Assembly (NCBI RefSeq): GCF_001375555.1
Contig: NZ_CTDZ01000009.1
Coordinates: 372,001 to 436,000, forward strand
DNA from: Numidum massiliense
Lineage (GTDB): Bacteria; Bacillota; Bacilli; Thermoactinomycetales; Novibacillaceae
Length of the DNA: 64,000 bases
Reading direction: 5' to 3'
Shown here piece by piece: positions 4,439-44,451 of this stretch. A program made the translations under genes and the position numbers. Position 1 is the stretch's first letter, and each line of letters begins with the position of its first letter. Under the pieces are notes generated by a model, which saw only the letters and a program-made list of their open reading frames with translations, was not told where the DNA came from and did no database searches.

Positions 4439-4465
4439 TGACAATTACAGAGCGTACTACTGTGT

Positions 4466-4563
4466 TGCTAGGGGTGCCGGAAAAATCGGCTGAGAAACGC
4501 GACGTTCGTTCGCGTTAACCCTCTGAACTCGATTCTGGATAATACCAGCGGGAGGAAGTAACG
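4466..4563 (+). ncRNA. TPP riboswitch (THI box)
   Basis: The conserved thi-box elements occur in the right order: GGGGTGCC, GGCTGAGA, ACCCTCTGAAC, and CTGGATAATACCAGCG followed by GGAGG. This is the thiamine-pyrophosphate aptamer. The downstream stretch ends in a terminator at 4626-4662, so control is probably by transcription termination when TPP is bound. It serves ykoE. Confidence 0.95.
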
Positions 4564-4625
4564 GTTCGCAAGGAATGTGGATCACTCTGTGGAATTCCAC
4601 CGACTCACATTGCTTATTAGTAACA

Positions 4626-4690: not shown

Positions 4691-5272
4691 GTGAGTAAAG
4701 CAATTACGGTGAAAGAAGCGATTTTAACGGTTGTTATCTCGATATTAGGCGGTATTTTGTATATGGCGTGGATTCCGGTTTACGAATGGGTCAGCGGTTT
4801 CGTACCTTTCTTAGGGAAGGCGATTTCGCCGATGTGGTATATCGCCGGCATTATCGCCGCCTACATCATTCGCAAACCGGGCGTCGCTTTTGTGGCTGAA
4901 TTTGCGGCTGCATCATTAGAAATGATCGCCGGCGGGCAGTACGGATTGTCCACTGCGATGAGCGGAATCATGCAAGGCCTCGGGGCCGAAGTCGTCTTTT
5001 TAGCGTTTGGGTACAAAAAGTGGACGTTACCGGTGCTCATGTTGGCCTCTGTCGGTTCGAATATCGGTGGCTACATTGTCAATTACATGTTTTGGGGGTA
5101 CGCACAAAAGACGATTTTCATCCAAGTGACTAACTTTGCGTCAAGTACGATTGGCTCACTGTTCGTCTGCGGGCTACTCGGCAAATGGCTAAGTGACGCA
5201 CTGGCCAAGGCGGGCGTGTTGAACAGTTACGCGATCGTCCGAGCCACTGGGCGAGCGAAGTGGGAGAAGTAA
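4691..5272 (+). CDS. ykoE: YkoE-type ECF transporter substrate-binding component (thiamine precursor)
   Basis: A 193-residue membrane protein, start GTG 4691, with GAGGAGAGG upstream. It has about five to six hydrophobic segments (YkoE-like ILGGILYMAWIPVYEW, PMWYIAGIIAAYI, GLSTAMSGIMQGLGAEVVF). It should be the S component that recognises hydroxymethylpyrimidine or thiamine in an energy-coupling-factor transporter. The TPP riboswitch directly upstream supports this. In Bacillus it sits with ykoF, ykoD and ykoC; no ATPase or transmembrane partner is next to it here, because the gene is followed by a terminator and the prophage. Confidence 0.85.
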   Translation: MSKAITVKEAILTVVISILGGILYMAWIPVYEWVSGFVPFLGKAISPMWYIAGIIAAYIIRKPGVAFVAEFAAASLEMIAGGQYGLSTAMSGIMQGLGAEVVFLAFGYKKWTLPVLMLASVGSNIGGYIVNYMFWGYAQKTIFIQVTNFASSTIGSLFVCGLLGKWLSDALAKAGVLNSYAIVRATGRAKWEK

Positions 5273-5324
5273 CAGCTCATCCTCGCGCAGAGGGGCACGC
5301 GATTTAAGGAGCTACGCGAAATGT

Positions 5325-5369
5325 AAAACGCCCGAAATCGTTAAGTTTACTACGATTTCGGGCGTTTTT
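5325..5369. terminator. Bidirectional terminator between ykoE and attL
   Basis: Arms of 16 bp (AAAACGCCCGAAATCG at 5325-5340; its complement at 5353-5368) form a perfect stem that has A and T runs on both sides. Before prophage integration this hairpin would have lain just downstream of the tRNA-Arg gene on the opposite strand, so it probably served both ykoE and that tRNA. Confidence 0.85.
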
Positions 5370-5400
5370 AGAACGTCTTATCACGACTAAAGCATATCGG

Positions 5401-5415
5401 TTGGCGTCCCAGGAG
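5401..5415. repeat. attL core (15 bp)
   Basis: TTGGCGTCCCAGGAG here is identical to 44374-44388, which is the 3' end (with CCA) of the intact tRNA-Arg gene. The integrase gene lies just inside this copy. The prophage therefore spans 5401-44388, and 38,973 bp separate the two copies. Confidence 0.9.
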
Positions 5416-5467: not shown

Positions 5468-5503
5468 TGTGTAAAAAATGTGTAAAATAATTCAATGTGT
5501 AAA
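5468..5503. promoter_or_regulatory. Putative integrase arm-type sites, left
   Basis: TGTGTAAAA occurs at 5468-5476 and 5479-5487 (11 bp apart, one helical turn) and TGTGTAAA at 5496-5503. The same pair with the same 11-bp spacing occurs near attR at 44233-44252. This pattern fits arm sites for the N-terminal domain of the integrase. The last site overlaps the end of int. Confidence 0.6.
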
Positions 5504-6601
5504 TCCCGCTGTCATCGCCTCGAAGGTAGCCGCCGCGCTCATCTCATCCTCGGTTCTGAGCTCCTTCACAACATGGGCATATGTGTCTAGCGTGGTCTGG
5601 ATATCTTTATGTCCGAGACGTTCTGAGACGTAGTAAATCGATAAGCGTTTATACAACAATATGCTGGCATGTGTGTGGCGCAAGCCGTGCAGTGAGATCG
5701 GTTCGATGTTCATTTTTTCGAGCAAACCTTTGAGAACTTTGTTTGCAGCTGTGTTTGATATCACTTGATACTTAGAACGAGGGCTAAAAAACACTAGGCC
5801 GTGAATGTTCGCCGGCCCGCTTTCGATCAAATTCTTAAAGACATCCATAGTGTGCCGATCCATGCGGATTACACGGTTTGACTGCTCGTTTTTAGTCTTG
5901 CAAAAACCGGACGGCATTCGACGAGTATAACCCCACGCCTTATTTACAGTGATCGTGTTGGCCCGATAATCGAAATCCTTTTTCGTTAGCCCGACCATCT
6001 CACCGAAGCGCATACCGGAAGTTAGACCCAGTAATAGCAGGTAGTACGTAAGCCCGCTGTCTAGGCGCTTGTATAGCTCGGCAAGCAACCTTTTTGATTC
6101 GAAGTAGCTGAGGTGTTTTTCTTCCGGCTTCTTGGCGGCCAAATTTCCCGTAAGTGTCGCGTTTCGCGTGAAGTCTATAGCTATGATACCCTCATCAATC
6201 GCGTCCTTTACACACGCCCGTATGTGCGTGTTGAGCTTCCGTGTTGTAGCCTTAGCGTGAGTTTTGGCATATTCGTTTAAAAAAGATTGATACGACCGTT
6301 TTGTGATGCTCTGAATCGGCACACCAGCAAAATGTTCGCGGACTGTTTCCAACGTCGTGTAATAACGCTCCAACGTGTTTTTAGCGATATCTGTTTTGTA
6401 CGTCCGTATCCATCCCTCAAAATACTCATCGAAAGGCTCCTTACGCAGGTGTGGCACAACGCCTTTTTGCAACTTCGCTTCGACTTCGGCAGCCGCAACT
6501 TGCGCTTCCTTTTTCGTGCGAAAGCCGCCCTTACGGATCGGTTTCGGCTTCGCGCTCACAGTGTACTGCCAAGTCTTACCGCGCTTTTGAAAACTCGCCA
6601 T
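5492..6601 (-). CDS. int: Tyrosine site-specific integrase
   Basis: The protein has 369 residues. It has an N-terminal arm-binding domain (MASFQKRGKTWQYTVSAKPK, with GGFRTKKEAQVAAAE), a SAM-like core-binding domain (about 65-165) and a catalytic domain with the tyrosine-recombinase signature: Arg in TSGMRFGEM, HGLRHTHAS, LGHKDIQTT and the nucleophile Tyr in LDTYAHV. A strong ribosome site (TAGGAGGAAT) lies upstream of ATG 6601. It is read leftwards, away from the immunity genes and towards attL, which is the usual arrangement. It should catalyse integration into the tRNA-Arg 3' end. Confidence 0.95.
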   Translation of the reverse strand: MASFQKRGKTWQYTVSAKPKPIRKGGFRTKKEAQVAAAEVEAKLQKGVVPHLRKEPFDEYFEGWIRTYKTDIAKNTLERYYTTLETVREHFAGVPIQSITKRSYQSFLNEYAKTHAKATTRKLNTHIRACVKDAIDEGIIAIDFTRNATLTGNLAAKKPEEKHLSYFESKRLLAELYKRLDSGLTYYLLLLGLTSGMRFGEMVGLTKKDFDYRANTITVNKAWGYTRRMPSGFCKTKNEQSNRVIRMDRHTMDVFKNLIESGPANIHGLVFFSPRSKYQVISNTAANKVLKGLLEKMNIEPISLHGLRHTHASILLYKRLSIYYVSERLGHKDIQTTLDTYAHVVKELRTEDEMSAAATFEAMTAGFTH

Positions 6602-13653: not shown

Positions 13654-15597
13654 ATGAATTTAGACGGAATGAATCCAGCACAGTTGGAAGCTACCACACA
13701 CATTGACGGACCGTGTTGTGTGATCGCGGGGGCGGGCTCGGGTAAAACCCGGGTCCTTACCCACCGCATTGCATACCTGATTGAACAGGGAGTGCCTGCA
13801 GAACAGATTTTGGCATGTACGTTCACGCGGAAGGCAGCAAGCGAAATGACAGAGCGTCTAGAGCCGCTAGTAGGGCGTGAGGCGGACTTACTCAATCTCG
13901 GGACCATTCACTCTATGTGTTATCGAATTCTCCGCGAGGAATGGCGTAACACCGGCGAAGACTACGAAATACTGAATGACTACTGGCAAAAACGTTACGT
14001 CAAAGATATTTTAGCGCCGGCCGGCCCAAAGAACCCGGATGGCATGAACTGGGGCGCTGACGTCGGAGACGTACTAGGGGTTATCAGCAAGCAGAAAAAC
14101 GAGCTAGTGACCGCTCAAATGTTTCAAAAGCGGATCGTTGACTATGACGCTAATGACGCCGGCAGGTACGCGAGAGCTTACGAACTGTACGAAGAGCGGA
14201 AGCAGCAGGAAGGAAAACTAGACTTCGATGACATGCTAATCCGTTGTTATTACCTACTGGCAGAAAATCCGGTCATTCTCGCAAAGTACCAAGAACGATA
14301 CAAGTACATCCTTGTTGACGAGTTTCAAGACACGAATCACGCACAGTGGGAAATCATACGGATGCTTGCGGATCCAGAAGCTAATTTGTTTGTCGTAGGC
14401 GATGACTGGCAGTCAATCTATGGATTCCGTGGTGCGCGTCCGGAGTATATTGTCAACTTCCAAAAGTGGTATCCGGAAGCGGAAATTGTTGTGTTAGACA
14501 CCAACTATCGTTCGAACTCTCAAATTATCAATGTCAGTAACGCGGTGATTCAGAACAACCAAGACCAGTATCCGAAGACAGTACTTGCACACCGGGATCC
14601 CGGTCGCGAACCAATGATGTTGCACGCGACAGACGAAGAGCATGAGGCGGAGTTGATAGTGTCGGAGATTCAAACGCTCATTAAAAATGGCACAAAACCG
14701 GGTGAGATAGCGATCCTTTACCGCACAAATTCACAGTCGCGAGCATTTGAAGACAAACTTGTCCGAGCAAACATTTCGTACACGATCGTAGGAAGCGCCG
14801 GTTTCTATGGCCGCAAGGAAGTTAAGCATATGATCGGTTATTTGCAGGTGATCGCAGACACTAATAACGACGAAGCGGTCAAACGCATTTTGAATGTCCC
14901 TAATCGCTTCTTGGGTCGTGTGTTGATTCAGAACGTCGAAAGTTTCGCGATTCAAAACGGCTTAAGTTTTTATGACGCGATGCAATGTATCGACAATCTA
15001 AGGATGTTCCAGAAACGAAACATTAGCGAGTTCGTGGAGTTGATTGAGGAGCTGCGTCGTCACTCGTACCCGCCGGCACAAACCATTCAATTGATCCGCG
15101 AACTGACGGAATACGATGCATGGCTAAAGAAAGAGGACGGCGACACGGACGGCGAGAATGCGCGAATCGAAAACTTGAACGAGTTGCAGTCAGCAGCCAG
15201 CCGGCACAGCGACTTGACGAGCTTCCTACAGTTTGTCGAGATGATGACCTCCCGCTCACAGTCAAATGACGATAGCGACGATCGTGTGCAGCTCATGACG
15301 ATCCACCGCTCGAAAGGGCTGGAATACCCGGCGGTGTTCTTAACCGGTATGGTGAACGATCTCTTACCGCATAAAAACGCCGTCGGCTATGTTGACGGAC
15401 AGATATTGCCCAATACGTGTACCGAGGAACGACGGTTATGCTACGTGGGCATGACACGTGCGAGAGATTTGCTTTACATGAGTTACTTCGATCGGTACCA
15501 AGGCAAGGACGTGGAGCCGTCAATATTCCTAACAGAGACGGCTAAAGAAAGACATGTCGACGACGTGTCGGGGACAGGTACACGACATGTCATATAA
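13654..15597 (+). CDS. UvrD/PcrA-like superfamily 1 helicase
   Basis: 647 residues. It has motif I AGAGSGKT (25-32), motif II DEFQDTN (about 221-227), motif III GDDWQSIYGFRG, motif IV TNYRSN and the C-terminal motifs MTIHRSKGLEYP and VGMTRARD. It is therefore a complete 3'-5' DNA helicase, a little shorter than PcrA (about 730). The last 15 codons contain the first copy of the 36-bp repeat (15556-15591). It presumably works with the nuclease, Sak4-like and DUF669 proteins in phage DNA replication or recombination. Confidence 0.92.
   Translation: MNLDGMNPAQLEATTHIDGPCCVIAGAGSGKTRVLTHRIAYLIEQGVPAEQILACTFTRKAASEMTERLEPLVGREADLLNLGTIHSMCYRILREEWRNTGEDYEILNDYWQKRYVKDILAPAGPKNPDGMNWGADVGDVLGVISKQKNELVTAQMFQKRIVDYDANDAGRYARAYELYEERKQQEGKLDFDDMLIRCYYLLAENPVILAKYQERYKYILVDEFQDTNHAQWEIIRMLADPEANLFVVGDDWQSIYGFRGARPEYIVNFQKWYPEAEIVVLDTNYRSNSQIINVSNAVIQNNQDQYPKTVLAHRDPGREPMMLHATDEEHEAELIVSEIQTLIKNGTKPGEIAILYRTNSQSRAFEDKLVRANISYTIVGSAGFYGRKEVKHMIGYLQVIADTNNDEAVKRILNVPNRFLGRVLIQNVESFAIQNGLSFYDAMQCIDNLRMFQKRNISEFVELIEELRRHSYPPAQTIQLIRELTEYDAWLKKEDGDTDGENARIENLNELQSAASRHSDLTSFLQFVEMMTSRSQSNDDSDDRVQLMTIHRSKGLEYPAVFLTGMVNDLLPHKNAVGYVDGQILPNTCTEERRLCYVGMTRARDLLYMSYFDRYQGKDVEPSIFLTETAKERHVDDVSGTGTRHVI
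15556..15591 (+). repeat. 36-bp direct repeat, copy 1
   Basis: The sequence is identical to 16029-16064, 473 bp away. It lies at the 3' end of the helicase gene and encodes VDDVSGTGTRHV there. It contains GACATGTC and GGGGACA and is flanked on the left so that GACATGTCG and CGACATGTC form a 9-bp inverted repeat (15551-15591). Confidence 0.95.
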
Positions 15598-15620: not shown

Positions 15621-16505
15621 ATGCGAAGACGTATGCTTAACCCGGAATTCTTTGTCGACGCCGAGGTTGTTGGTTCGTTAGATTTTGCAGGTAGATTGTT
15701 TTATCAAGGGCTGTGGTGTGTCGCCGAAGACAGTGGAGTATTTGAACTCTCTGCGCTCGCTCTGAAGATGAAAATATTCCCCGGTGACCCTATCGATCTC
15801 AATCAGATCGATCAGTATGTCGAAAAACTGGTAGAGCTTGAGAAGGTCATCACGTTCGAATCAGGTGGCAAAGAATACGGTTGGCTGAAGAATTTCCATA
15901 AGCACCAGAAGCTAGATAAGCCTTCTCCGCCAACGCTTCCGCTTCCTCCTTGGATGCATTTTAACCAAGAGGGAGAGAAGCGACACCAGTGGCATTATAC
16001 CTGCAGTTATGAGGAGTATACAGAAAGCGTCGACGACGTGTCGGGGACAGGTACACGACATGTCCCCGGACAGCCGGCGCCAGAAGAGAAGGGAAGAGAA
16101 GGGAAGAGAAGAGAAGAGAAAGGAAAGGGCGTCGCCGACAGTTCACCGACGCCTCCTTCCCCCTCTCTCCCTCTTTCAGACATCTCGGAGTATGAGCGTG
16201 ATGTGATGAGCGAACTACAGCAAGTTGATCACTACCCGACTGATGAGGGTAAAGACCTCACGCTGATCCGGACGCTTGAAGAACAATACCAGACCGTCGA
16301 CTTGCTGTCAGAGGCCCGCAAATGGCAGACATACAAGCTCGATAGGCCGTTAATTCCTGGCAAAAGCAATGCACGTTCGCAGTTCCGGACTTGGGTATCT
16401 AAAGCGGCGAAGTGGCAGAAAGAGCGTGACGAACCCGATGACGATCCGGGCTATGTGCCGCCGTATTGGCAAAAGTATGTGCCACCCGAGGAGGAGGCTG
16501 ACTGA
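15621..16505 (+). CDS. Replication initiator / DnaD-like replisome organiser
   Basis: 294 residues, ATG 15621 with AGAGGTGG upstream (in-frame GTG at 15600 also possible). The N-terminal part (RRRMLNPEFFVDAEVVGSLD, FYQGLWCVAEDSGVFEL, WLKNFHKHQKLDKPSPP) resembles winged-helix phage replication proteins. A low-complexity linker follows, encoded by the second 36-bp repeat and a pure purine tract. The C-terminal part (SEARKWQTYKLDRP, NARSQFRTWVSKA) resembles DnaD-type tails. Position directly before dnaB supports loading of the helicase at the phage origin. Confidence 0.75.
   Translation: MRRRMLNPEFFVDAEVVGSLDFAGRLFYQGLWCVAEDSGVFELSALALKMKIFPGDPIDLNQIDQYVEKLVELEKVITFESGGKEYGWLKNFHKHQKLDKPSPPTLPLPPWMHFNQEGEKRHQWHYTCSYEEYTESVDDVSGTGTRHVPGQPAPEEKGREGKRREEKGKGVADSSPTPPSPSLPLSDISEYERDVMSELQQVDHYPTDEGKDLTLIRTLEEQYQTVDLLSEARKWQTYKLDRPLIPGKSNARSQFRTWVSKAAKWQKERDEPDDDPGYVPPYWQKYVPPEEEAD
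16029..16064 (+). repeat. 36-bp direct repeat, copy 2
   Basis: Perfect copy of 15556-15591, here in the middle of the replication-initiator gene and translated in the same frame as VDDVSGTGTRHV. GGGGACA and TGTCCCC (16043-16067) also form a stem around it. A purine-only tract follows at about 16082-16128. Confidence 0.95.
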
Positions 16506-22011: not shown

Positions 22012-22941
22012 ATGGAAATATTGAACATAAACGAAGTAGCAAAAATGTTGGAGAAGAACCAGGAATCCCAGGGGAAATTATCAGTTCTATTTGTAAGTAA
22101 AAAAGGAACGAAGTATCAAGCGTATCAACCGCAGGTTTCTAACAAAGTTCAACAGGATGTAATTAAGCTATTTAAGGAACACCTGGAAACTATAATTGCA
22201 AAAGACTTAAAGGAAAGGGAATTTAATCCAAGTGGGCAACCGAATGATGAGTACTCGGTTTGCAGTTATGAATACGTCGGAAACTTCCACGAGGTAACTA
22301 GTTTGTACAAAAATACAAAAGAAGAAGAAATGAGAGCCGATCAAATAAACTTTTTGATTTTCAGGCTGAGAATTAACGAAGATGAAAATCCTATAAAGTA
22401 TCTTTACTTATTCAGGAAAAACCATAAGTTAAAGAATATAAGAAAGGGCTTTTGGATTAGAAAGATATCCGATACATATGATAAACTGTCAGATTCTGAC
22501 TTGATAGGGATAGATGGGAGCATTGATGCCATTGCGTTTGAAGATGAACTTGCATTCTTCTCTCATATTTCAGCAGAAAGGATTTTTAATTTAAGGGAGA
22601 AGTTCGCGCAAAATGCCCGAAAGGTATTAAACGAGATAGAGGACGGTGGCAGAATTGATAACTTTGATGAATTCAAGGAAGAGTGTTTAAATGACGTAAG
22701 GATCACCAGAAGGCTAACTAAAATGCATTCGAACCCAAGAATTGTAAAACTATTTCATGAGTACTTTTCAAACGCACAAGAGGTCGTGGAATTGTTTGAT
22801 TTGAATATCTCATTCAATGAGGATAACACAAAAATTGTATATAGTCATAAAGATGAACTGAAGGACATCACGATGCTTATGAGAGATGCGTATTACAGGA
22901 CGATATTGGCAGACAGAAAGGGTATAGACGACTTTAATTAG
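22012..22941 (+). CDS. kwaB: KwaB-like DUF4868 protein (Kiwa antiphage system)
   Basis: 309 residues. The middle and C-terminal parts (IDGSIDAIAFEDELAFFSHI, SAERIFNLREKFAQNA, TRRLTKMHSNPRIVKLFHEY, then a LFDLNISFNED strand and RDAYYRTILADRKG) match the DUF4868 pattern that defines KwaB. KwaB is the cytosolic, DNA-binding partner of the membrane protein KwaA in Kiwa defence. Base composition is much richer in A+T than the phage core, a sign of separate origin. The start may be ATG 22012 (too close to GGGG) or TTG 22021. The next gene is a four-helix membrane protein, as Kiwa requires. Confidence 0.72.
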   Translation: MEILNINEVAKMLEKNQESQGKLSVLFVSKKGTKYQAYQPQVSNKVQQDVIKLFKEHLETIIAKDLKEREFNPSGQPNDEYSVCSYEYVGNFHEVTSLYKNTKEEEMRADQINFLIFRLRINEDENPIKYLYLFRKNHKLKNIRKGFWIRKISDTYDKLSDSDLIGIDGSIDAIAFEDELAFFSHISAERIFNLREKFAQNARKVLNEIEDGGRIDNFDEFKEECLNDVRITRRLTKMHSNPRIVKLFHEYFSNAQEVVELFDLNISFNEDNTKIVYSHKDELKDITMLMRDAYYRTILADRKGIDDFN

Positions 22942-22965
22942 GGTTTCGGGAGGTGGAAAGATAAG

Positions 22966-23499
22966 ATGTTAACGAATTTGTATAAGTCAATTCTGTTTGT
23001 CTCATCTTTTTTTCCACTATATGTCATACTACTGGTTAAGTTCTACGAATTTGACAAACCACTAGCATACAACATTATTAACCATACTGAATCATTTATT
23101 GTTTTTGGTTCGTTAATCGTCATCTCCTTAATTACTTTTATGTATTTTTTGTTTTGCGAACTAAATAGTGAAGAGAGTTTTGGAGAGGTTGAGAATGTTA
23201 ATAGTGAGATATTAACATATTTCATAACTTATGTTGTACCATTAACAACGCTAGAGGAAAACAATATAAATTCTATTTTGGTTAATATCATTTTGTTTAC
23301 TGTTGTTGGTATTTTTTACGTAAATAGTAATCAGTTTTATTTAAATGTACTATTTACGTTATCTGGTTTTAATGTGTATAAAGATCAGGGTAATAGAATA
23401 ATTATATCGAAAAAAAGCGCAGATAAAATATGCAACAGGGATTCGGTTAGGGTGAAGAAGGTTGGGAAAAAGATATACGTTATTAATAAAAAGGAATAA
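22966..23499 (+). CDS. kwaA: KwaA-like membrane protein (Kiwa antiphage system)
   Basis: 177 residues, ATG 22966, with GGGAGGTGG upstream, 24 bases after kwaB. Four hydrophobic segments lie at about 5-25, 43-64, 83-98 and 103-121. A soluble C-terminal part (about 122-177) opens with FYLNVLFTLSGFNVYK and continues with strands ending KKVGKKIYVINKKE. Four helices plus the adjacent DUF4868 gene fit KwaA, which senses phage at the membrane. Sequence alone is weak evidence; the call rests mainly on topology and context. The usual order is kwaA-kwaB; here it is reversed. Very A+T-rich. Confidence 0.58.
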   Translation: MLTNLYKSILFVSSFFPLYVILLVKFYEFDKPLAYNIINHTESFIVFGSLIVISLITFMYFLFCELNSEESFGEVENVNSEILTYFITYVVPLTTLEENNINSILVNIILFTVVGIFYVNSNQFYLNVLFTLSGFNVYKDQGNRIIISKKSADKICNRDSVRVKKVGKKIYVINKKE

Positions 23500-23797: not shown

Positions 23798-24175
23798 ATG
23801 CCAAGTAGACCAAAGAAACCGTGCGCTGCACCTGGATGCCCGAACCTTACAGACGGCCAGTACTGTGAGCAGCACGCACACAAAAGCGCAGAGCGCGACA
23901 GGTATTACGACCGCCACCATCGCGACAAACAGGCGCGAACTTTTTACAGGTCTCCGGAGTGGAAGCTAGTGAGGCAGCGTGCATTGAACCGCGACAGTGG
24001 ATTGTGTCAACATTGTCTGCGGCGGAAGCGTATCACGATGGCCGATATGGTTGACCACATCGTACCGATCCGGAAGGCGTGGCACCTGAGACTAGACACA
24101 AGGAACTTACAATCGCTTTGCAACAGCTGCCACAACAAGAAGACCGCGGAAGACAAAAGGAGGTACGGGATGTAA
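23798..24175 (+). CDS. HNH endonuclease (packaging-associated)
   Basis: 125 residues. CQHC, the catalytic DHIVPIRKAWH and the closing LQSLCNSCHNKKT form a classic HNH zinc nuclease. Another cysteine pair at the N-terminus (CAAPGC, YCEQH) forms an extra knuckle. HNH genes directly before terminase are common in cos-type phages, where they help DNA packaging. Confidence 0.92.
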   Translation: MPSRPKKPCAAPGCPNLTDGQYCEQHAHKSAERDRYYDRHHRDKQARTFYRSPEWKLVRQRALNRDSGLCQHCLRRKRITMADMVDHIVPIRKAWHLRLDTRNLQSLCNSCHNKKTAEDKRRYGM

Positions 24176-32841: not shown

Positions 32842-35800
32842 ATGGCCACTATTGCCGATATGGGCAGTCTAGTCGTTCGCGTGGGCCTCGATGACAAAAA
32901 GTTTGACCAAGGGCTTAAAAACGTCAACAGGCGCATGGCACTAGCTAAGAGTGAACTTAGGGCTTCTTCTTCTATGTTCACCAACTTTGGAAAAACAGTA
33001 GATGGTCTGCGCCTGAAACAACAAAACCTTTCAAAGCAATACCAGCTCCAAGGTGTACGAGTTCAGCAGTTGCGTAACCAGTATAAGGAGCTAGCCGCAG
33101 CTCATGGCGCTGAATCAGACACGGTGTTGCGTGCTGCTGCAAAATACAACAACGCGCTTGCTACGTATAACAAAATGGGGCATGAGCTCCAGGGGGTAAC
33201 CAAGGAACTACGGTTTCAGGAAAGCCGTTGGTACAAGGCCTCGTCGTCCCTAAAGTCGTTTTCCGACCAAGCAAACAAGGTCGGCGGTGCAATGACATCG
33301 ACGGGGAGAAGCCTAACAATGGGCGTCACGATGCCGATCGCCGGCATTGCGACAGCCGCGATCCGGACGGGCATGCAGTTCGACAAACAAATGTCCAAAG
33401 TTCAGGCAATCAGCGGTGCGACGGGAAAGGATTTTGACGCGCTGAGAAAACAGGCGCGCGATCTCGGCGCGGGCACGCAGTTTTCGGCTAGAAGAAACTG
33501 GCCGGTTGCGGGGAAACTCGCAGCATAAATCAGTTGGTGAATTCGGGGGAGGCTAAGGATAAACTATGCTAATCCCGAGCCAAGCGCATTAGGGATATTG
33601 CGAAGGTGTAGAGACTAGGCGAAGTAATCTAGAACAGAAGAAACGCCCACGAGCGCCAACCACCTGACCACGTAACGGTGAAGGTGATGATATAGTCCGA
33701 TACTCCGATGAAAATCGGAGAGATAGTCTAAACAGCTATCATAACACTTGACTGAAGCTGCGCAAGGCATGGAGTATCTTGCACTCGCTGGTTGGAAGAC
33801 GAAAGACATCATGTCTGCTATGCCTGGCATGCTTGATTTGGCCGCTGCCGGCGCGCTCGATCTTGGTCGTGCCGCAGACATCACTAGTGATACCATGGCC
33901 GCTTTCAAAATGAAGGCCTCTGAAGCCGGCCATGCCGCTGATGTGTTTGCGTACGCACAGGCAAATGCAAACACAAACGTAGAGCAACTCGGGGAAGGTA
34001 TGAAGTATCTGGCGCCGGTTGCGAACAACATGGGCTGGAGTTTAGAGGGTACTTCAGCGGCGATGATGGCCTTGGCTAACCAAGGGCTAAAAGGATCAAT
34101 CGCTGGCCAGGCGTTTGCATCTTCCCTTGGACGGCTTGCTAAACCGACAAAGGCGATGCAGGGCGTCATGAAAGAGCTGAACATATCATTCTTTGACGCC
34201 CATGGACAAATGAAGTCCATGCCAGACATCGTACGTGAGCTTGAAAAAGGCACAAAAGGCCTCACGGATAAACAGCGATCCGCTGCCCTTACAACATTGT
34301 TTGGTGCCGAAGCGTACAAACACTGGTCGATTCTTCTTAACACCGGCAGCAAAGACCTTAAGAATATGACAAAAGAGCTTGAGAACAGCGACGGCACAGC
34401 GAAGAAAATGGCTGACACTATGATGGATAACTTCGCCGGAGCAATGAAAGAGCTACGCTCAAAGCTAGAAGAGGCCGGAATTGTCATATCAGACAAACTG
34501 ACGCCGGCGATCCGCGCTATTGCTGAATGGGTTGGTAGGGCGACAGACAAATTTAACAAAATGGACGCGGGAACGCAGAATCTTATTTTAGCTATCGCTG
34601 GCATTGCCGCAGCGTTAGGACCGGTCGTCGTCGGTATGGGCGTATTCGTAAAGAGCCTAGGAACCATTACGGGCGGGCTATCAAAAACGATTGGCTGGTT
34701 CGGGCGGTATAGAACCAACCTCGCCACTACAGACAAGTCAATGAAAACATTTGCCGCAACATCAACAACCGCCGTGGCAAAAATAAACGCCACGAACGCC
34801 ACAATGGGACGTGCTTCGAAAGGTATGCGGGGGCTACGAGGCAGCGCGATGTTAGCTGGGGCTGCGATGGCTACGTTTGGCGGCGAATGGGGTGGCGTTG
34901 CCGGAATTGCAAGTGTGTTTCTGCCAGGAATTTTGAAAGGCGGAAAAGGCTTGTTAACGTTTGGGAACAACGCCCTATCATCGGCTGGCAACCTCCTGAA
35001 ATTCGGCGGTAATGCTAAAACAGCTTCTAAAGCCAACGTAGATTTGGCTGGTAATGTGGGGAAGTCTTCCAGGGGATTTGCCGGACTCGCAGGTAAGGCT
35101 CTTGGTGCCGTTAAAGGTATCGCCGGCTTCGGGGGCAAAGCGTTAGGCCTTGTTAAGAACCTTGGCAGCCTAACCAAAGTACTTGGTATTGCTCGTGCAG
35201 GGTTCAGCGTTCTTGGCGGTCCCGTGGGGCTCGCTACAACGGGTATAACTTTGCTTGCGGAAGGTGGGTATAAGCTATACAAACAGCTTACAAAAGAAAG
35301 TATTCCCGCAGTCAATGACTTTGGATCCGAGGTCAGCGAGTCGACGACTGAAGCTGTGCTGGGCTACAAAAAGCTGAACGATGACGCAACGACACAGTTG
35401 AATGAACTGAACTGGTCAGGTCAAAAAGTGTCTAAGAAAACCGCTGAGAATTTGACAAAAACGTTCGGCGAGATGGGTAGTCAAATATCTGGTAGCCTTA
35501 AATCGAATTTCAATGAGAGCTATGGCGCACTGAAAGAATTTTTAAGTAACAGCAAAGGGATAAGCAGCAAAGAACAACAAGCGATCCTCGACAATGTGAA
35601 GAAAAAGCATGAAGAACAGCAAAAGACTGTCAAAGGCTATCAAGCCCGAATAAAAGAGATCATGGAAAAAGCGCGTAAAGAAAAACGGCAACTGACAGCC
35701 AATGAACGCCATGAAATCAACGATATACAACAGAAAATGGCCGACACCGCAGTCAAAACGATGTCAAAAAACGAAAAAGAACAAGTTATAATACTTGAAC

Positions 35801-37446
35801 GGTTGAAACGATCATCAGGGAGTATCACAGCGAAGCAAGCCGCCGATACGGTTAAAAATTCGAAGAAGGCAAGAGACGGTGCTATATCCGACGCTAAAAA
35901 GAAGTTCAAAAAAGTGGAGGAGTGGGCAATCTACGAGAGCACCGTTACAGGATCTATCAGCAAAAAAGAAGCGGATAAAATCATAAAGGAAGCACGGCGA
36001 CAAAAAGATAAGTCTATTAAAGCTGCAAAAGACAAACACAAAAAAGTTGTCGAACATGCCAAGAGCCAAGCCGGCGGTCAGGCAAAACACGTCGACTGGG
36101 CAACCGGCGAAGTGCTCACCGGATGGGACAAAATGATTGCGGGCGTAGCTGTCGCAGTTAATACCGTAAGCGATGGGATCAACTGGGTACTCGATTTGAT
36201 CGGGATGGGTAAATATAAAATCCCACATTGGAAGCCCAAAGGATACTCCAAGGGCAAAAAGCCAGCGGCAAGACGCAATACAGAGGGTCCGGGCGGGAGT
36301 ATTGGGTACTATGCGACAGGAACGCCATCGAGCGGCCACCCTGGAGGCCCCGCGATCGTCGGTGAACGAGGCCGCGAACTTGCGCACATACCAGGCCAAG
36401 GTGTGACTCTTGTCGGTACTAAGGGGCCGGAACTCATTTGGGATTTGCCACGGGGTTCGTCTGTTCTCCCGAACCGAGAGACTGAAAAGACGCTGAAAAG
36501 TTACGGTTTCCCAGGATACGCGGGCGGTGTCGGGGACTTTTTCGACTGGGTATTTGAGGGGCCGCGGTACTTGATGAACAAGGTTTGGGGCAAGTTTCCA
36601 ATACCCAGCATAGACATTGGCGGAATGTTCTCTAAAATGGGCGCTGGCATAATATCATTTTTAAAAAATAAAAGCCTAAAGTTCATTGGAGACAAGGTCA
36701 AAGGCTTTATGGATAGCTTTGGGAGCATAGGAGACGGTTCAGCGAAGGGCAACATAGGCAAATGGATCGCTGCTGCTGTAAGTATCACCGGCGTTCCAAA
36801 ATCGTGGATCGGTCCACTGTCTACGATTGCACAAAAAGAGTCTGGCGGAAATCCAAAGGCGATCAACCTCTGGGATTCGAATGCAAAGGCGGGAATTCCG
36901 AGTAAGGGTCTCATGCAGACAATCGATCCAACATTTCAGGCGTACAAAAAGCCAGGAATGAACGACATTTGGAATCCGGTGCACAACGCCGTCGCGGCGA
37001 TCCGTTACATCATTGCGCGATACGGCAATGTGTTCAACGTGCCTGGAATCCGGTCGATGGCTCGGGGCGGTCCATACATGGGGTATGCAAGTGGCGGCAT
37101 CATCAACAAGCCGCAACTAGCTATGCTCGGCGAGAACGGCTTCCGAGAATACGCGATCACGACAGAACCGCGGTATCGTAAGCGATCGCTAGAATTGTGG
37201 TCGCAGCTGGGCGGTGAGCTCGGGGCGCTCCCCGAAGTCAAAGGGCTGAGCACAAGCGCAGCAAATGTTAAAGACGCAGCTAGCATCATAGCAAATGAAA
37301 TAGCGCAGGCACTGGCGCCGATCGTTCGTGCCAGTGGCATCACTCAAAATCTAAACTTCTACACTTCTGAATCGCCGCCACCTTCCGAGGTAGCACGGAG
37401 AACAAAACAAGCCTCCCGTCGTTTGGCAATGGAGCTGGGGGTGTAA
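32842..37446 (+). CDS. Tape-measure protein, interrupted by a group I intron
   Basis: Exon 1 is 32842-33489 (216 codons) and exon 2 is 33751-37446. Joined, they give 1447 residues with the conserved junction GTQFSA / TEAAQGMEYLALAGW restored. Unspliced, exon 1 would run into RRNWPVAGKLAA and stop at 33528. The N-terminal third is the TP901-type tape-measure core (MGVTMPIAGIATAAIRTGMQ), followed by hydrophobic Gly/Ala segments (about 500-770), a long charged helical region and, at about residues 1230-1320, a lytic transglycosylase (SLT) domain (IAQKESGGNPKAINLWD, SKGLMQTIDPTFQAY). The protein sets tail length and helps open the cell wall during DNA entry. Confidence 0.9.
33490..33750 (+). ncRNA. 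Group I self-splicing intron in the tape-measure gene
   Basis: The 261-nt insert follows an exon T (33489) and ends in G (33750), as group I introns require. The exon end TCGGCT pairs with the internal guide GGCCGG (33500-33505), including the U.G pair at the splice site (P1). P4 is TTCGGG (33542-33547) with CCCGAG (33574-33579). P7 is GACTA (33613-33617) with TAGTC (33693-33697). The R and S elements AAGGTGTAGAGACTA and GATATAGTCC are recognisable, and a GAAA-capped hairpin (33703-33720) fits P9. There is no room for a homing endonuclease. Confidence 0.9.
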
Positions 37447-44252: not shown

Positions 44253-44298
44253 AAGTTTCGTTTCCTATCGTTTTTGGACGTAACTTCCATAAAATAAC

Positions 44299-44343
44299 AA
44301 ACGCCCAAAACCGTTGATATAACTACGATTTCAGGCGCTTTAA
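44299..44343 (-). terminator. Phage-borne terminator-like copy next to attR
   Basis: This stretch resembles the host terminator at 5325-5369 over about 45 bases (shared AAACGCCC and CTACGATTTC, GGCG) and lies at the same distance (about 31 bp) from the att core. The stem is imperfect. On the minus strand it would follow the tRNA-Arg gene. Confidence 0.55.
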
Positions 44344-44373
44344 GGTTGGTTGATCTTGCCTAAAAAAGACCTA

Positions 44374-44388
44374 TTGGCGTCCCAGGAG
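44374..44388. repeat. attR core (15 bp)
   Basis: Identical to 5401-5415; it forms the 3' end of the tRNA-Arg gene including CCA. Confidence 0.9.
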
Positions 44389-44451
44389 AGATTCGAACTC
44401 CCGACCGACGGTTTAGAAGACCGTTGCTCTATCCGACTGAGCTACTGGGAC
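44375..44451 (-). tRNA. tRNA-Arg (anticodon TCT)
   Basis: 77 bases on the minus strand. The acceptor arms GTCCCAG and CTGGGAC, a D-arm with AGCTCAG, the anticodon loop CTTCTAA, the T-loop GTTCGAATC and an encoded CCA end are all present. It is the phage integration target and remains whole because the att core restores its 3' end. Confidence 0.95.

Follow-up and report, generated by a model that had tools for sequence, protein, structure and literature searches.

The window analysed here, a stretch of 64,000 nt, contains a prophage tape-measure protein (TMP) gene whose reading frame is broken by 261 nt. What is this insert, can the gene still yield a full-length TMP, and how did an element without an endonuclease gene come to lie there? 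An earlier note had read the insert as a group I intron at 33490-33750, and its coordinates proved exact: a group I intron, complete in all its parts, interrupts the TMP gene there. Infernal (cmscan), the check proposed in that note, returned a match to Rfam Intron_gpI (RF00028) at 33480-33720 on the + strand, scoring 85.1 bits against a gathering score of 50 (E 3.1e-20) and spanning the full model (positions 1-253 of 253). In the 3.76-Mb host genome, RF00028 matches the TMP intron only (E 0.1), and the intron DNA is single copy by blastn. We did not find this locus described in the literature searched, mostly non-subscription papers.

The interrupted gene and its prophage

The TMP gene is made up of three parts:

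32842-33489, + strand: TMP exon 1, 216 codons, open when joined with exon 2
33490-33750, + strand: group I intron of 261 nt without an endonuclease gene; RF00028 match, no long frame inside
33751-37446, + strand: TMP exon 2, with PhageMin_Tail from profile position 16 and an SLT transglycosylase domain (Pfam)

Joining 32842-33489 to 33751-37446 gives 1447 codons and a terminal stop with no internal stops, which agrees with the 1447-residue protein expected by the earlier note. Left unspliced, the exon 1 frame holds 228 codons and closes with a stop at 33528. The 3' exon covers PhageMin_Tail profile positions 16-201 (Pfam). As it begins inside this domain, the intron site falls within the conserved N-terminal region of the TMP; the earlier note had placed it in the most conserved part of the frame. 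The longest stop-free stretches in the intron are 27 codons on the + strand and 48 codons on the - strand, and the frames of both strands of 33490-33750 contain neither an endonuclease gene nor a remnant of one, in line with the description of the insert as endonuclease-free.

The surrounding prophage measures 39 kb. Its probable attachment sites are direct repeats at 5319-5415 and 44292-44388 (72% identical over 97 nt), whose final 15 nt are identical and lie at the 3' end of a tRNA-Arg (44375-44451, - strand); a tyrosine integrase is encoded at 5492-6601, beside the 5319-5415 repeat. Upstream of the terminase genes, 22012-23499 carries KwaB-like and KwaA-like genes in the order kwaB-kwaA (PADLOC E 2.4e-76 and 2.4e-43), matches that identify it as a two-gene Kiwa anti-phage defence system within the prophage. 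A perfect 36-nt direct repeat (15556-15591 and 16029-16064, 473 nt apart) has one copy where a replication-type ORF ends and the other within the next ORF (roles assigned by eye). Just outside the prophage, a TPP riboswitch (4460-4573) lies upstream of ORF 4691-5272, which judging by its position possibly encodes a thiamine transporter.

Intron structure and predicted splicing

The secondary structure runs from P1 to P9 and includes a P3/P7 pseudoknot. It was assessed on eight introns aligned with MAFFT, five TMP introns plus three from phages AD45-P1, pYD6-A and an unannotated record; percentages refer to paired cells of this alignment.

33484-33505, + strand: P1, exon end UCGGCU plus AG with CUGGCCGG; U33489.G33500 at the 5' splice site
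33484-33489 and 33500-33505, + strand: P1 exon strand UCGGCU and guide GGCCGG, by sequence pairing
33533-33539, + strand: P3 5' strand, partner 33654-33660; both-side changes in 4 of 7 pairs
33542-33547 with 33574-33579, + strand: P4, 95.7% paired
33552-33555 with 33565-33569, + strand: P5, 100% paired
33580-33606, + strand: P6 and P6a, 100% and 90.6% paired
33613-33617, + strand: P7 5' strand GACUA, partner UAGUC at 33693-33697; 100% paired, invariant in 8 of 8 introns
33654-33660, + strand: P3 3' strand; P3 85.7% paired
33661-33665 with 33682-33686, + strand: P8, 77.5% paired
33703-33720, + strand: P9 hairpin CUCCGAU-GAAA-AUCGGAG; both-side changes in 6 of 7 pairs
33722-33740, + strand: hairpin GAUAG/CUAUC 3' of P9, from the minimum-energy fold; no support from the alignment

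Over all eight introns, 85.6% of 436 cells hold standard pairs, compared with 35.1-40.7% in slid controls (partners moved by 1-3 columns). Both-side changes occur in 34 of 57 pairs, against 18.5 +/- 2.6 in shuffles and 11-16 in slid controls; because the structure was drawn on the window's own sequence, it has an advantage over the slid controls in cells paired and a smaller one in both-side changes. None of 500 shuffles reached 34, and all five whole-structure measures exceeded 500 of 500 shuffles. The intron has a fold z-score of -4.73 relative to dinucleotide shuffles, none of 200 being equally stable. The least supported helix is the GAUAG/CUAUC hairpin 3' of P9 (35% of cells paired, eight rows).

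P2 can also be written in the window intron, and P10 is weak by eye. At the 5' splice site, five of the six introns that have letters in the column concerned, the window intron among them, show the U.G pair, and the terminal guanosine of the intron is G33750. The pairing of TCGGCT with GGCCGG, the U.G pair and the terminal G that the earlier note had picked out by eye were all recovered, and its P4, P7 and GAAA-capped P9 are supported in the eight-intron alignment. P7 is the guanosine-binding helix. Between its 5' strand and the P3 3' strand, the Rfam alignment places an insertion of 34 nt, with GGCG/CGCC near its ends by eye; extra pairings P7.1/P7.2 in this interval are the criterion for subgroup IA.

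In the late transcript, a guanosine bound in P7 would cleave just 3' of U33489, which the U.G pair of P1 keeps in place. The released exon would next attack immediately 3' of G33750 and become ligated, UCGGCU to ACUGAA, giving the 1447-residue TMP; if splicing failed, translation would end at 33528 after 228 codons. The intact core and the precedent of phage ICP1 (below) suggest that splicing does take place in cells. The intron might instead be degenerate and splicing-dead, in a defective prophage that makes its TMP solely as two fragments, a truncated one of 228 codons and a separate 3' one. It does sit in a prophage, an element whose late genes are normally silent, but its core helices are present and covary, the Rfam score is 85.1 bits, and both TMP exons are open. 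The terminase, tail chaperone and Dit frames are likewise open with domain matches above the Pfam cut-off, and the probable attachment repeats are present. We consider a dead intron very improbable and retain the reading of an intron competent to splice.

Tape-measure introns elsewhere

The earlier note had called introns in TMP genes uncommon, which does not hold. The gene is a recurrent target of group I introns, as illustrated by phages JCL1032, ICP1 and Lietuvens and six further Bacilli loci, and PMC10448857 describes it as frequently interrupted. Vibrio phage ICP1 is the closest precedent with proven splicing (RNA-seq and RT-PCR); according to the same paper, two of its three TMP group I introns normally carry no endonuclease gene, and endonuclease content varies between isolates, empty introns included. 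Endonuclease-free TMP introns are thus already published. Unlike the window, ICP1 has three introns in the gene and a Gram-negative host, and the ICP1 stretch compared shows no similarity to the window TMP at tblastn E 0.01.

In Sporosarcina phage Lietuvens (MT104122.1), the conserved TMP region entered by the window intron also holds a group I intron that resembles ours in sequence and lacks an endonuclease gene; it lies 13 residues further on (229/230) and is not listed at the Rfam gathering score. Lactobacillus phage JCL1032 also has a group I intron in its TMP gene, reportedly described by Riipinen and Alatossava in 2004; its GenBank TMP CDS is a join of two pieces, and the intron scores 59.4 bits with RF00028 and is 61% identical to ours (156/256). 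It differs in position, by about 112 codons in the 3' direction: it splits the codon that aligns with residue 329, at a distance of 2 nt from the L191 site. The IMG/VR contig IMGVR_UViG_2901146262_000003 (L305) carries a homologous intron without an endonuclease gene at exactly the same insertion site as the window. Unlike the window, L305 has a second intron 18 nt on and then a third with an HNH-type gene. Numbered on window TMP residues, from tblastn breaks and junction sequences, the sites are:

216/217: window intron; L305 intron 1
222/223: L305 intron 2
229/230: Lietuvens intron without an endonuclease gene; L190 intron with an HNH-type gene
297/298: L193 intron
325/326: L305 intron 3, 1030 nt, with an HNH-type gene
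328/329: L191 intron, 262 nt, without an endonuclease gene
inside codon 329: JCL1032 intron

Residues 325-329 form a second site cluster besides 216-230, with the introns of JCL1032 (L003, ~2787), L191 and L305 (~3792) falling within about four codons. In L305, 2910-4821 is a single TMP gene with three group I introns, an 18-nt exon separating introns 1 and 2; both of these lack an endonuclease gene and lie upstream of the HNH-bearing intron 3. The 248-residue protein of intron 3 matches zf-FCS, with HNH_2 below the Pfam cut-off. The L190 intron protein is HNH-type by eye, from AHHI...CHKEFH, and matches no Pfam family at 0.001.

Searched with the intron by blastn, 398 Bacilli genomes gave six places outside its own genome: L190, L191, L192 and L193, with TMP exons downstream (PHROGs), and L194 and L195, with ribonucleotide reductase exons downstream. 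An RF00028 census of the same genomes gave matches in 89 (E 1e-5; 77 over the cut-off), among them L363 and L395, where TMP sequence lies 3' of the intron (PHROGs). Both exons match the window TMP at L190, L191 and L193, and the TMP call at L192, L363 and L395 is based on the 3' side. L192 (43.1 bits) and L395 (41.8 bits) score under the Rfam gathering score; L190 has no Rfam match at that score and was identified by blastn and the intron HMM.

The 3' exons of 95 intron loci were inspected (94 of the listed census places plus L190, found by blastn only). Pfam was run on 47 of these and on the window; the other 48 loci were set aside by eye, mostly with short 3' frames (L220, L338, L340, L346: 110-181 codons). 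Among the 48 scanned 3' exons, 24 encode ribonucleotide reductase and five PhageMin_Tail; L192 and L363 are two more TMP 3' exons, by PHROGs only. Several short 3' frames in L196-L224 and L336-L395 look flagellin-like by eye (e.g. TKNSILSQAAQAMLAQ), often with two introns close together.

The census bears on another possible source, an IStron (a group I intron combined with an IS605-type transposon) that has lost its transposon part. An OrfB_IS605 domain occurs in 3 of the 48 scanned 3' flanks, and so such combinations exist in other genomes. The neighbours of the window intron, however, are TMP exons, a tail chaperone gene and a Dit gene, with no transposase; it is the sole group I intron copy in its genome, and its closest blastn matches are four TMP and two ribonucleotide reductase introns. 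We give an IStron remnant almost no credence and keep to an origin among TMP introns.

Empty sites, mosaic likeness and route of spread

Relatives of the window TMP are mostly uninterrupted at the site. In all 60 listed phage records (P. larvae phages, ~68% identity; part of 979 matching records), 275 query residues are encoded in an unbroken 825 nt. The TMP loci align across the junction in one piece in 128 of 129 cases (some contigs entered twice), and the intron HMM (E 1e-3), run on 111 TMP loci, matched only the window's own sequence and L305. An order-level TMP search matched 11 of 42 genomes, own genome included, and 15 of the 16 places outside that genome align nearly the whole query in one piece. 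L182, from this search, was rejected as an intron case: it has a truncated TMP in a degraded prophage and no Rfam intron match. Gapped-pattern scans returned 35 viral and at least 119 genome stretches; among the matches listed, TMP exons are split at the site only in L018 (own sequence) and L032 (tblastn E 1e-3), and L036 gave one weak tblastn match elsewhere in the TMP. The other stretches among the matches listed have no split TMP exons by tblastn (E 1e-3) and are probably mostly chance. No phage matched the 24-kb late region by megablast.

Both occupied 216/217 sites have TCGGCT 5' of the junction, pairing with the window guide at 6/6 positions. Full guide pairing with U at -1 is found in 3 of 96 distinct 18-mers from empty sites (L170, L276, L323); the L262 empty site is fully guide-paired but has C at -1. 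This pattern fits the requirement for a P1 helix with its U.G pair, whatever the route of arrival. Arrival by RNA-level reverse splicing instead of DNA homing could account for an endonuclease-free intron and for full pairing at both occupied sites against 3 of 96 empty ones. Full pairing is, however, also expected from DNA homing combined with the need to splice, the L305 homologue shares its gene with an intron bearing an HNH-type gene, and PMC3984707 describes the pathway as without direct experimental evidence. We therefore judge reverse splicing unlikely and prefer a source in endonuclease-driven movement.

The same-site pair allows a closer comparison. Intron 1 of L305 (279 nt) is 66.3% identical to the window intron (171/258), and the joined exons are 52.0% identical (312/600). 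That the introns are more alike than the exons does not prove a recent transfer, since other introns are about equally similar overall: in a multiple alignment, 12 introns are 48-69% identical to the window intron, with L190 highest and L305 intron 1 third (64%). Taken segment by segment, the likeness is a mosaic. L305 intron 1 clearly leads over the first 60 nt (50/60, 83%; next best 39/60). It ranks 11th of 12 over the next 80 nt (45/80), where L191 and L305 intron 3 reach 71%, and 8th of 12 over the last 121 nt (70/117), where L190 from site 229/230 is closest (87/117). Fisher tests, chosen post hoc and run on an earlier alignment (a one-position difference for the first-60-nt test), gave p 0.0004 for L305 intron 1, first 60 nt against the rest, and p 0.026 for the last part, with L190 set against L305 intron 1. 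Guide matching accounts for some of the likeness in P1 but not for the shared P2. Well-supported groups are few in the intron trees, which do not place the two 216/217 introns together, so that same-site descent is not shown over the whole intron. Exon identity between the window and L305 stays at 12-22 of 30 in 30-nt steps with no peak at the site, which leaves recent co-conversion between these two phages unsupported.

The earlier note had also held the spread of such an intron to be unexplained. Collaborative homing and the turnover or loss of endonuclease genes, described in PMC10448857 and PMC3984707, offer explanations in principle for an intron without an endonuclease. In the window, no free-standing endonuclease gene adjoins the TMP gene, whose flanking genes are the tail chaperone and Dit genes (Pfam). 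The only HNH gene recognised among 10 scanned prophage ORFs (23798-24175) lies just before the terminase genes, about 9.3 kb upstream, and is presumably a packaging HNH. The simplest account would be that the intron lost its endonuclease gene or was co-converted with a neighbouring intron that bore one (as in L305); site 229/230, seen both without (Lietuvens) and with an HNH-type gene (L190), counts for this origin. The absence of an endonuclease remnant from the intron, the distant HNH gene and the flat exon identity to L305 count against it. We are highly confident that 33490-33750 is a group I intron that would restore a 1447-residue TMP by splicing and that most likely derives from an endonuclease-bearing or co-converted TMP intron. 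It would have been retained because precise removal makes the insertion nearly harmless.

The window intron is thus real and ordinary in kind, and by itself it breaks no rule. Its practical consequence is that automatic annotation splits the gene, so that TMP length, and hence tail length (about 0.15 nm per TMP residue), is misread. Tentatively, and with odds that we put well below even, the TMP genes of Bacilli phages may harbour group I introns that recombine as a pool, a 5' module (P1-P2 with the guide) staying tied to its site while the catalytic core is swapped between sites, so that endonuclease-free introns could persist and spread within the gene as mosaics. The same-site endonuclease-free pair, a site occupied with and without an endonuclease gene, and the guide-paired empty sites (L170, L276, L323) together offer a concrete system for endonuclease-free intron movement.
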